From: Minwuia sp. | GTDB taxonomy: Bacteria; Pseudomonadota; Alphaproteobacteria; Minwuiales; Minwuiaceae | Assembly: GCA_029213165.1 (NCBI GenBank) | Contig: JARGNO010000008.1 | Location: forward strand, 1 to 57,096 | Length of the DNA stretch: 57,096 nucleotides | Direction: 5' to 3' | Part shown: one piece after another, positions 8,394-57,096 of the stretch | How positions within the stretch are numbered: position 1 is the stretch's first letter | Layout: each line of letters starts with the position of its first letter | Notes under the pieces: model-generated | Seen by the model: only the letters and a program-made list of their open reading frames with translations | What the model was told of the DNA's origin: nothing | Database searches by the model: none | Made by a program: the position numbers and the translations under genes

Positions 8394-8556
8394 GCCTGCG
8401 CTCCCGTGCCGATTGAAAAGATCATGTGTAGAAGATAGGGAGTACCCCACGCGTATCGAGTCGTGAATTTCGATGCGCTGCATGACATGACGTCGGCGTG
8501 AATGAGTTGCGCGATGAGTGTCGGGATCCTGGCGTGACGAAAAGGTAGTTGGCTCG

Positions 8557-9654
8557 ATGAAATCCGAGGGATCAGCAAGGACAGCCCTGATTACGGGTGT
8601 GACCGGACAGGATGGTGCCTATCTGACCGAGTTGCTGCTGTCGAAGGGCTATGTTGTCCATGGTATCAAGCGCCGTTCATCGTCGTTCAATACCGGGCGG
8701 CTGGAGCATCTTTACCAGGATCCGCACGCCGACGGAGTCCAGTTGCACCTGCATTATGGTGATCTGACGGACGCCACCAACCTGCTGCGGATCGTGCAGC
8801 AGGTCCAGCCCGACGAGATCTACAATCTCGCTGCCCAGAGCCACGTTCAGGTCAGTTTCGAGACCCCTGAATATACGGCAAACTCCGATGCGATCGGAAC
8901 GCTGAGACTGCTGGAGGCGATCCGGATCCTGGGGATGGAGAAGACCGTCCGTTTCTATCAGGCATCCACATCCGAACTCTATGGCAAGGTGCAGGAAACG
9001 CCGCAGCGCGAGACAACCCCGTTCTGGCCGCGCAGCCCCTATGCCGCCGCCAAGCTCTATGCCTACTGGATCACGGTGAACTATCGGGAGGCCTATGACC
9101 TGCACGCCTCCAACGGTATCCTGTTCAATCACGAGAGCCCGTTGCGCGGCGAAACCTTCGTCACCCGCAAGATCACCCGCTCCGTTGCCTCGATCCAGCT
9201 CGGCCTGCAGGACAAGCTCTATCTGGGCAATCTGGATGCCCGGCGCGACTGGGGACATGCCCGGGACTTTGTCGAGGGCATGTGGCTGATGCTGCAGCAG
9301 GACAAGCCTGACGACTATGTGCTGGCGACCGGAGAAACCCATTCGGTGCGTGAATTTGTCGAGGCCGCCTTCGCGGAGGTTGACCGCAGGATCGTCTGGT
9401 CTGGCAGCGGTGTGGAGGAGCAGGGCAGGGACGCCGCGACCGGCGAAGTGCTGATCGAGGTCGATCCGCGCTATTTCCGCCCGACCGAAGTCGAATTGCT
9501 GCTGGGCGACCCGACCAAGGCACGCGAACGCCTTGGCTGGTCGCATACCACCGGATTCAGTGATCTGGTCGCGCAGATGGTGCGGGCGGACCTGATTGCC
9601 GTACAGCACGAACATGACTTCAATGCCGCCATGCACAAGGCCCGTGAGAGCTGA
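8557..9654 (+). CDS. gmd: GDP-mannose 4,6-dehydratase
   Basis: Converts GDP-D-mannose to GDP-4-keto-6-deoxy-D-mannose, the first step to GDP-L-fucose and related sugars. The 365-residue extended SDR starts with [15 protein letters not shown] (nucleotide-binding glycine motif), then [38 protein letters not shown] (Tyr-x3-Lys) and [20 protein letters not shown], all characteristic of Gmd. The ATG at 8557 is preferred over an upstream GTG because the family begins just before the glycine motif. It is followed immediately by fcl. Confidence 0.96.
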
Positions 9655-9655
9655 G

Positions 9656-10612
9656 ATGGCGGCTGCATTCGACTTGCAGGGGCGACGGGTCTTCGTTGCC
9701 GGGCACAAGGGCATGGTCGGCAAGGCCATTGTCCGACGCCTGGCGCGGGAAGACTGCGAGATCCTGGTTGTCGACAGATCCGACCTGGACCTGCGCGACC
9801 GCGCGGCGGTGAAGACCTGGCTCGCCGCCACCAAGCCTGACGTGATTGTCGTCGCGGCGGCAAGGGTGGGCGGCATCCACGCCAACAACACCTATCCGGT
9901 GGACTTCATCGCCGAGAACCTGGAACTGCAATCCAGCCTGATCAGCGGCGGGTTCGAGACCGGTGTCGCGAAACTGCTGTTCCTGGGTTCCTCCTGCATC
10001 TACCCGCGGGAGGCGCCTCAGCCGATCCGGGAGGATGCGTTGCTGACCGGGCCGCTGGAGCCCACCAACGAACCCTATGCCATTGCAAAGATCGCCGGCA
10101 TCCGGCTCTGCCAGGCCTATCGCAAGCAATATGGTGCTGACTTCATCTCCGCCATGCCGACCAACCTCTATGGTCCGGGTGACAATTTCCATCCCGACAA
10201 CAGCCATGTCGCCGCTGCTTTGCTGCGCCGGTTTCACGAGGCCAGGCGGGATGGCGTCGAGACCGTCACGGTCTGGGGCACCGGTCGACCGCGACGGGAA
10301 TTCCTGCATGTGGATGACATGGCCGACGCCTGCATCCATCTGCTGCGCTGCTATTCCGGCCATGACCATGTCAATGTCGGCTGCGGCGAGGACATATCAA
10401 TTGCCGATTTCGCCAGGCTGATCCAGCAGACGGTCGGGCACGATGGCGAACTGGTGTTCGACTCGACCAAGCCCGATGGCATGTATCGCAAGCAACTGGA
10501 CGTCACGAAACTGACCGGTCTTGGCTGGCAGCCGCGCATTGGCCTGTCGGAAGGTCTGGGCGGATACTACGACTGGTTTCGCGCGAATATCGACAACGTG
10601 CGCGAACGCTGA
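9656..10612 (+). CDS. fcl: GDP-L-fucose synthase
   Basis: A bifunctional epimerase/reductase that makes GDP-L-fucose from the Gmd product. The 318-residue SDR has GHKGMVGKAIVRRL at the N-terminus, ARVGGIHANNTYP, LFLGSSCIYP, YAIAKIAGIRLCQAYRKQYG with the catalytic Tyr/Lys pair, and MPTNLYGPGDNFH. The ATG lies one base after the gmd stop, so the two are co-transcribed. Together they supply an activated deoxysugar for a surface glycan, which fits the glycosyltransferase that follows. Confidence 0.95.
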   Translation: MAAAFDLQGRRVFVAGHKGMVGKAIVRRLAREDCEILVVDRSDLDLRDRAAVKTWLAATKPDVIVVAAARVGGIHANNTYPVDFIAENLELQSSLISGGFETGVAKLLFLGSSCIYPREAPQPIREDALLTGPLEPTNEPYAIAKIAGIRLCQAYRKQYGADFISAMPTNLYGPGDNFHPDNSHVAAALLRRFHEARRDGVETVTVWGTGRPRREFLHVDDMADACIHLLRCYSGHDHVNVGCGEDISIADFARLIQQTVGHDGELVFDSTKPDGMYRKQLDVTKLTGLGWQPRIGLSEGLGGYYDWFRANIDNVRER

Positions 10613-10676
10613 CAGAGCTTGAATGGTGCCGTGGTGATGCACCCGGCATTGCCTGCGCCAACCGGGAAGCTGGACC

Positions 10677-11429
10677 ATGAAGATTTCAGTCGTGACCGTC
10701 TGCTTCAATTCCGCCGCAACCATCGGCTGGACCGTTGAATCCTTCCTGAAACAACAGTGGCCCGACAAGGAGTTGCTGGTTGTAGATGGCGCATCGGATG
10801 ATGAAACGCTGAAGATCGTGCGGAGTTTCAGCGATCCGTCGGTCCGGATCAGCAGCGAACCGGACAATGGCATCTACGACGCCATGAACAAGGGGTTGCA
10901 GCGCTTCAGCGGTGACGCGGTGGGATTCCTCAATTCGGACGACAGATACCGCGACCCTGGCGCGCTGGCGGCGATTGCGGAGACACTTGCGCGCCACGAT
11001 GTCGCTTATGGCGATATTGATATCGTCGCCGATCATCAATCGCGGCGGCTGGTGCGCGCATGGCGGAACACGCCCTATCAGCCCGGAGGGTTCCGCCGGG
11101 GCTGGATGCCCGCCCACCCGGGCTTCTATGTCCGCCGGACTGTTGCGGAAGCTGTCGGGGCATTTGATCTGACCTGGCCCAGTGCCTCCGACTACGACTG
11201 GATGCTGCGCGCAATGGAACTGCACGACTTCAGCGCGGGACACGTCCCCCATGTGCTGGTCGACATGGCCAACGGTGGCTACAGCAGCAGCGGCATGCGT
11301 GCCTTCCTGCGCGGCAACCTGCAGAGCCTGCAGGTCCGTCGCCAGCGCCTGGGCAGCGGTCTTGTGGACCGCGCACTTTTCGCCAAGCCCCTGCGCAAGA
11401 TCCCCCAGTGGCTCGGAAGGTCTTCCTGA
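10677..11429 (+). CDS. family 2 glycosyltransferase (WcaA-like)
   Basis: A 250-residue GT-A fold glycosyltransferase. It opens with [14 protein letters not shown], has the nucleotide-binding [11 protein letters not shown], and the metal-site region [15 protein letters not shown] near residue 87. There are no membrane segments. It resembles transferases found in colanic-acid-like and O-antigen clusters. Its place 64 bases after fcl suggests that it uses a GDP-fucose-derived or other sugar in surface polysaccharide synthesis, but donor and acceptor are inferred only. The operon ends at the strong hairpin at 11463-11504. Confidence 0.85.
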
Positions 11430-11462
11430 ACAGTTCCCGGGTGCCGACGGTCATCTCCGGAA

Positions 11463-11504
11463 CGAAACGGGGCCGCAGCAATGTGCTGCGGCCCCTCTGT
11501 TTCG
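11463..11504. terminator. strong bidirectional terminator hairpin
   Basis: A perfect 12-base stem (GGGGCCGCAGCA at 11469-11480 with TGCTGCGGCCCC at 11484-11495) closes a 3-base ATG loop. It is extended by CGAAAC (11463-11468) pairing with GTTTCG (11499-11504) across a TCT bulge. It lies between the convergent glycosyltransferase and glnA genes, so it can stop transcription from either side. Confidence 0.85.
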
Positions 11505-11510
11505 AACCAA

Positions 11511-11525
11511 CTGTCTGAAAGACAG
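11511..11525 (-). terminator. small hairpin just after the glnA stop
   Basis: CTGTCT (11511-11516) and AGACAG (11520-11525) form a 6-base stem one base beyond the glnA stop codon. On the minus strand it is followed by a weak T/G tract. It may be an accessory terminator before the larger hairpin. Confidence 0.4.
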
Positions 11526-11526
11526 A

Positions 11527-12922
11527 TCAGACCGAATAGTACATCGCGAACTCGACCGGATGCGGTGCATGCTCGAAGCGGTAGACCTCTTCCCACTTCA
11601 GGGCCATGTAGCCGTCGATCTGGTCGTCGGTGAACACATCGCCCTTCTTCAGGAACTCGCGGTCCGCGTCCAGCGCCTGCAGGGCCTCGCGCAGGGAACC
11701 GGCAACCGTCGGCACCTCGGCCAGTTCCTCGGGCGGCAGGTCGTAGAGGTTCGCCAGGATGGATCTTGTTCTCGAGACCGTCCAGGCCAGCCATCAGCAT
11801 GGCCGCGAAGGCCAGGTAGGGATTGGCGGTCGGATCGGGGAACCGGACCTCGACACGCTTTGACTTCGGACCGGAACCGAACGGGATACGGCAGGAAGCA
11901 GAGCGGTTGCGGGCCGAATAGGCCAGCAGCACGGGGGCCTCGAAACCCGGGATCAGGCGCTTGTAGGAATTGGTGGACGCATTGGTGAAGGCGTTCAGGG
12001 CCTTCGCATGCTTGATGATGCCACCAATGTAGTACAGCGCCGTCTCGGACAGGTCGGCATAGCCGGAACCGGCGAAGGTCGGCTTGCCATCCTTCCAGAT
12101 CGACATGTGCGTGTGCATGCCCGAGCCATTGTCGCCGGAAATCGGCTTCGGCATGAACGTCGCCGTCTTGCCCCACTGATGCGCGACCTGATGGATGACA
12201 TACTTGTAGATCTGCATGCCGTCAGCGGTCTTCACCATGGTGTTGAACCGGGTGCCCAGTTCGTGCTGGCTCGGCGCGACCTCATGATGATGCTTCTCGG
12301 TCTCGAGACCCATCTCACGCATCACCGACAGCATCTCGCCGCGAATGTCCTGACCGGAATCGACAGGCATCACCGGGAAGTAGCCGCCCTTGACCGGCGG
12401 TCGATGGGCCATGTTGCCGCCTTCCAGCGCCGCGCCGGAATTGTGCGGTGCCTCGACGTCATCCAGGATGTAGGACGTGTTGTGCGAACCGGTGCTGATG
12501 CGCACGTCGTCGAACATGAAGAATTCGGCTTCGGGACCGAAGAACGCCGTGTCGCCGATGCCGGTATAGGCCAGGTAGGCCTCGGCGCGCTTGGCCGTGG
12601 TGCGCGGGTCACGACCATAGCCTTCGCCGGTCGAGGGCTCATGGATATCGCAGAACAGGATCAGCGTCGGCTGGGCCGTGAACGGATCCATCACCGCGGT
12701 CGAGGCGTCGGGCATCAGCGCCATGTCGGACTCGTTGATGGCCTTCCAGCCAGCGATCGACGAACCGTCGAACATGATGCCTTCCTCGAAGAAGTCCTCC
12801 GAGAAATCCTGCGCATCCATGGACAGATGCTGCCACTTGCCGCGCGGATCGGTGAACCGCACGTCCACATAGGCAATCTCGCCCGATTTGATCTGTTCCA
12901 TAACGCTTTTGACGTCAGACAT
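11527..12922 (-). pseudogene. glnA: glutamine synthetase type I, interrupted by an apparent 14-base deletion
   Basis: GlnA makes glutamine from glutamate, ammonia and ATP. From the ATG at 12922 (AGAGGG upstream) the frame reads a normal [65 protein letters not shown]. It continues to ENKIHPGE near 11752, then leaves frame. The correct C-terminus resumes at once in another frame as [14 protein letters not shown] to MYYSV. The canonical DPMDK-type link is missing. Restoring 14 bases gives exactly 469 residues and puts the adenylylated Tyr at codon 398 (Tyr397 in Met-less numbering). Either a true lesion or a sequencing/assembly error. Unrepaired, the frame runs on to 11279 as a 553-residue chimera. 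Confidence 0.93.
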
Positions 12923-13003: not shown

Positions 13004-13428
<425 letters not shown>

Positions 13429-56966: not shown

Positions 56967-57096
56967 AGAGCCTTCACGGCCTCCAGCACTTCCTCTGCGT
57001 GCCCAGGCACCTTCACCTTGCGCCAGGTCCTGGCAATCTTGCCGTCCCGCCCGATCAGGAAGGTCGAACGTTCGATTCCCATCGACTTCTTGCCGT
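56963..57096 (-). CDS. bcp: thioredoxin-dependent peroxiredoxin Bcp/PrxQ (C-terminal end only)
   Basis: The last ~44 codons of a peroxiredoxin read GKKSMGIERSTFLIGRDGKI and ARTWRKVKVPGHAEEVLEAV before a TGA at 56965. The KKSMGIERSTFLI segment is characteristic of the Bcp/PrxQ subfamily, which reduces peroxides using thioredoxin. The N-terminal catalytic part lies beyond the window. It is upstream of, and overlaps, the DUF455 gene. Confidence 0.92.
   Translation of the reverse strand, partial: GKKSMGIERSTFLIGRDGKIARTWRKVKVPGHAEEVLEAVKAL

Follow-up and report, generated by a model that had tools for sequence, protein, structure and literature searches.

The gene for glutamine synthetase (glnA) changes reading frame close to its end in this Minwuia genome (G000), and the locus raises the question of whether the organism has in fact lost the enzyme or whether a short piece of its gene has been lost from the draft sequence. 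In the window, that is, the whole stretch of 57,096 bases analysed, the following features are concerned:

12922..11527, minus strand: glnA, whole, from the ATG at 12922 to the TGA at 11527-11529
11753..12922, minus strand: glnA codons 1-390 in the normal frame (NCBIfam TIGR00653, 580 bits, cut-off 429)
11750..11753, no strand assigned: site of the missing 14 bases (14 more bases in 14 of 14 spanning relatives' loci)
11527..11751, minus strand: remainder of glnA in another frame, to EFAMYYSV and a stop (98.6% identity to residues 396-469 of L008, the product of a congener)
11279..11750, minus strand: unrelated tail of ~156 residues read by the unshifted frame (ORF translation)
13004..13342, minus strand: glnB (nitrogen regulatory protein P-II, 112 aa), an intact ORF upstream of glnA

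The normal frame starts at the ATG at 12922, and the C-terminal stretch ending in EFAMYYSV is encoded in another frame from 11751, so that no continuous frame leads through the adenylylation tyrosine to the native C-terminus and the frame changes at 11750-11753. As written, glnA comprises 1396 bases and its product from the ATG has 547 aa, the last ~156 of which are unrelated to glutamine synthetase; the native C-terminus is thus out of frame, as had been claimed. The gene scores above the TIGR00653 cut-off (580.4 versus 429.15 bits), with only profile positions 2-387 of 462 being covered. Residues 1-390 match type I GlnA of the adenylylated (beta) kind throughout (TIGR00653; PDB 1f1h and 2gls), and the C-terminal part of such an enzyme is also there, in the other frame, with the NLYDLPPEE motif kept. 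Unlike type I GlnA, however, the window glnA is without 14 bases, so that its frame as written has lost five residues of the loop together with the native C-terminus.

A query of 1450 bases covering the glnA locus was compared with 20 related genomes and the genome itself, and a match was obtained in 17 of the 21. From the other genomes the 16 best loci were taken, of which 14 span the site (L008-L021, five of them congeneric); L022, which covers the 3' end only, and L023, in which the alignment stops before the site, were excluded. All 14 have exactly 14 bases more than the window (blastn), and in the three nearest congeners (L008-L010) this gap is the only one in the aligned 1.4 kb. The comparison with related strains that the original prediction had proposed therefore upholds its claim of an apparent 14-base deletion in glnA. 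It had also placed the lesion just before the adenylylation tyrosine of a 469-residue enzyme, and this agrees with what we observed: the addition of 14 bases yields 470 codons including the stop, the intact congener product L008 has 469 aa, and in the alignment with PDB chain 1f1h_A (468 residues) its Tyr398 pairs with residue 397, Tyr397 being given as the adenylylation site of glutamine synthetase in two sources (PMC11957540, PMC9249168). In congeners, Asp-Pro-Met-Asp-Lys-Asn precedes the Tyr397-equivalent, and the codons missing in the window lie directly before it. This position at the adenylylation loop looks like a coincidence, as we found nothing tying the site to regulation. GA stands at each edge of the gap in the congeners (microhomology of 2 bases), which makes the gap position ambiguous by 2 bases.

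Of the seven congeneric genomes, only the window's own has the junction (search with up to 3 mismatches), and glnA is intact in five of the six other congeners; in the remaining one, G001, the contig ends inside glnA, 37 residues from the gene end. A pattern with a spacer of 0 to 20 bases at this position returned 14 bases in three of three named records, the own record being perhaps outside the scan. No match to an intact loop was detected elsewhere in the own assembly with a degenerate pattern and up to 3 mismatches.

The substitutions relative to the nearest congener, G002 (93% identical), give an indication of the age of the break. Before the gap, 63 of the 67 substitutions are at third codon positions and, after it, still 8 of 9 (P ~0.001 for at least 8 of 9 by chance), which argues that selection acted on the C-terminal part in its own reading frame up to the very recent past. 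The only change after the gap at another codon position, E to A at 453, is common to the congeners L009 and L010, and the codon positions of the substitutions relative to G002 give no sign of pseudogene decay in glnA. To judge by this pattern, the glnA break is recent.

We consider it probable that the 14 bases were lost through a local error in the assembly or the consensus, or because the consensus took up a minority allele, and a flaw of the draft sequence seems to us more likely than new biology; the odds of this and the other readings are a matter of judgement and were not computed. The locus would then be an ordinary glnB-glnA pair in which 14 bases of glnA were dropped in the draft sequence, the organism would possess a normal type I glutamine synthetase of ~469 residues that can be adenylylated, and the reads would be expected to carry the longer allele. 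Of the two outcomes initially offered for the lesion, another glutamine synthetase carrying the function or an assembly artefact, the second is the better branch, though unproved. Several observations point in this direction. The gene affected is the sole canonical glnA of the genome and the four GS-like paralogues described below have no Glu327, so that loss of glutamine synthesis would be expected, and strains with glutamine synthetase interference are typically glutamine auxotrophs, according to PMC9249168. Both sides of the gap appear to have been selected in an intact frame until about now, and the confinement of the junction to one genome of the genus also favours a flaw or a minority allele. 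The same is suggested by the regulatory partners, which are intact. GlnE is encoded by a single open frame (1025 aa) with two PF03710 domains (G000:C45:57998-60280, beyond the window), and the NCBIfam P-II models match positions 26-136 of the glnB ORF, below their equivalog cut-offs.

The state of the assembly is compatible with an artefact as well. The genome, a 4.1 Mb draft rated 99.86% complete, consists of 120 contigs and contains 10-N joins, of which a 200-kb portion of C101 has six, and false pseudogenes are documented to arise from errors of assembly (PMC11017572). The end of the window at 57096 abuts a further 10-N join (G000:C45:57097-57106), inside a conserved frame, and contig C45 continues to 102,961 bases. 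At the glnA gap site, however, there is no N, and a search for further frame breaks does not favour an artefact. For this search, ORFs of at least 100 aa from all frames of G002, some of them spurious, were searched in G000, and only HSPs with at least 85% identity and at least 20 residues were considered, less similar genes thus escaping the test. Qualifying HSPs were obtained for 76 and 221 G002 ORFs, and a frame change was seen in seven rows: glnA, three at N joins, two for one and the same base, at which G001 agrees with G000, and one in a 5' extension that carries several small indels. In the reverse direction seven rows were flagged, of which 1738, 6290 and 153732 were examined and 18019, 48297, 110148 and 183466 were left aside. 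Over ~260 kb aligned with G002 (some blocks overlap), and leaving N joins aside, glnA is the only conserved gene among those examined in which the frame is clearly broken. We therefore rejected a generally poor assembly, the rest of the sequence checked against G002 being clean; this makes a systematic error less likely, and the choice is then between a local error and a true mutation. The G000 and G002 blocks also differ by 26 indels of at least 8 bases and not divisible by three, outside the tested frames and two of them at N joins, so that a deletion of this kind is an ordinary event between both species, which again weakens the case for an artefact. A 16S search had no match in the own genome, but it also missed 5 of 14 control genomes and thus says little about an origin from a metagenome bin.

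We also considered how often glnA appears broken or absent in 192 alphaproteobacterial genomes, each at least 90% complete. A GlnA match at E <= 1e-60 was found in 162, and it was over the cut-off in 157. Apart from the own genome, the best E was above 1e-150 in seven, all of which we examined, together with G085 and G117 from among the 30 without a match; G077, G079, G099, G124, G135 and G139 (best E 6e-176 to 2e-184) were left aside. Including the own genome, glnA is broken or split in 5 of the 162, all of them drafts of 40 to 390 contigs, which is in line with a draft artefact. The case closest to that of the window is G106 (L115 174-1410, G106:C36), in which there is also an internal loss with a frame change and no N, but of ~53 codons (330 to 384) against five in the window glnA. 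The other three differ from it: in G094 two N runs lie inside the gene and, in G026 and G108, as in the congener G001, contigs end inside glnA. On the other side, atpA, used as a control, is apparently partial in 2 of 189 genomes (G133 and G163, called by best E-value alone), compared with 5 of 162 for glnA (Fisher P 0.26), and is below the cut-off in three more genomes and absent in 3 of 192. Since this difference is not significant, a special fragility of glnA is not shown. Drafts apparently without GlnA are, moreover, not rare, with 30 of the 192 genomes, many of them small, having no match at 1e-60. G074, G081, G085, G113 and G117, drafts of 2.9-6.0 Mb, have no GlnA over the cut-off and only GS-like proteins or none; in G074, G081 and G113 only GS-like proteins below the cut-off were found. 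A missing GlnA is therefore not in itself impossible in the class, which counts somewhat against an artefact and for a real loss.

Such a loss, a true and very recent 14-base deletion in the strain or population, which would have arisen by slippage or microhomology and inactivated glnA in a cell that depends on an outside supply of glutamine, is possible but in our opinion doubtful. The clean remaining sequence and the GA at both edges of the gap are consistent with it. In addition, we noticed a replacement of isoleucine by leucine, I383L (window 11774-11776), seven codons before the gap, where all 14 relatives have Ile; it is compatible with relaxed selection and may also be a chance event. 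Nevertheless, the lack of decay after the gap, where the single amino acid change is one shared with congeners, the intact regulatory genes and the lack of a visible substitute enzyme speak against a true deletion. The complete scenario, a genuine and very recent loss of the one canonical glutamine synthetase from an alphaproteobacterium with a near-complete 4.1 Mb genome, which would live on environmental glutamine or on a makeshift GS-like gamma-glutamyl ligase with GlnE and P-II still present, we hold to be very unlikely. If it were real, the organism would represent a glutamine auxotroph of natural origin observed just as the function is being lost, and GlnE and P-II would no longer have the target on which they normally act. 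The locus is more likely a caution that metabolism should not be inferred from one broken frame, even in a key gene and in a draft rated this complete, before the reads have been consulted.

The proposal that the deletion is real and that its function is carried by one of the GS-like proteins of the genome is highly improbable. PF00120 has six matches in the own genome, namely the two parts of glnA and four divergent paralogues (L002-L005), and the second glnA, GSII or GSIII whose search had been suggested was consequently rejected. The four paralogues are all present, with open frames and a GS catalytic domain, as a substitute would require, but their scores of 160-238 bits fall short of the GlnA cut-off (429), and none of them reaches the NCBIfam cut-offs for GlnA, GSIII, GlnII or gamma-glutamylputrescine synthetase. 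The Glu327 column, placed via alignment to 1f1h, is occupied by F, G, L and W, and the FDGSS motif (Asp50) is absent in all four, the alignment being loose there. In PMC5403932, the gamma-glutamylpolyamine synthetases GlnA3 and PauA7 are described as being without Glu327 and Asp50, both essential for glutamine synthesis by the Salmonella enzyme, and this loss accompanies that of the ammonia site. L002-L005 resemble these enzymes in having a GS catalytic domain with neither Glu327 nor FDGSS; as a difference, they pass none of the NCBIfam cut-offs applied, and the likeness is one of domain and motifs. Furthermore, G002, G004 and G005 keep GlnA despite having the same number of PF00120 paralogues, four, whose kinship to those of the own genome was judged by score only. 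The number of GS-like paralogues varies in the genus, with one in G003 and G006 and four in the other five genomes. The idea that another glutamine synthetase carries the function thus finds no support, and, as far as profile and motif searches go, no substitute is visible in the assembly.

That ribosomes shift by +1 at the junction and so produce a working glutamine synthetase whose loop is five residues shorter is hardly credible: both frames are conserved in sequence and one skipped base would join them, but the arrangement occurs in no relative, the recent date of the break already explains the conservation of both frames, and inspection of the junction by eye turned up no known slippery site.

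With respect to the neighbourhood of the gene, the gene order beside glnA is conserved in G002 (L008). On the opposite strand beside glnA, window 8518-11429 contains a glycosyltransferase-like gene and genes for sugar-nucleotide enzymes, which we take to be GDP-mannose dehydratase-like and fucose synthase-like.
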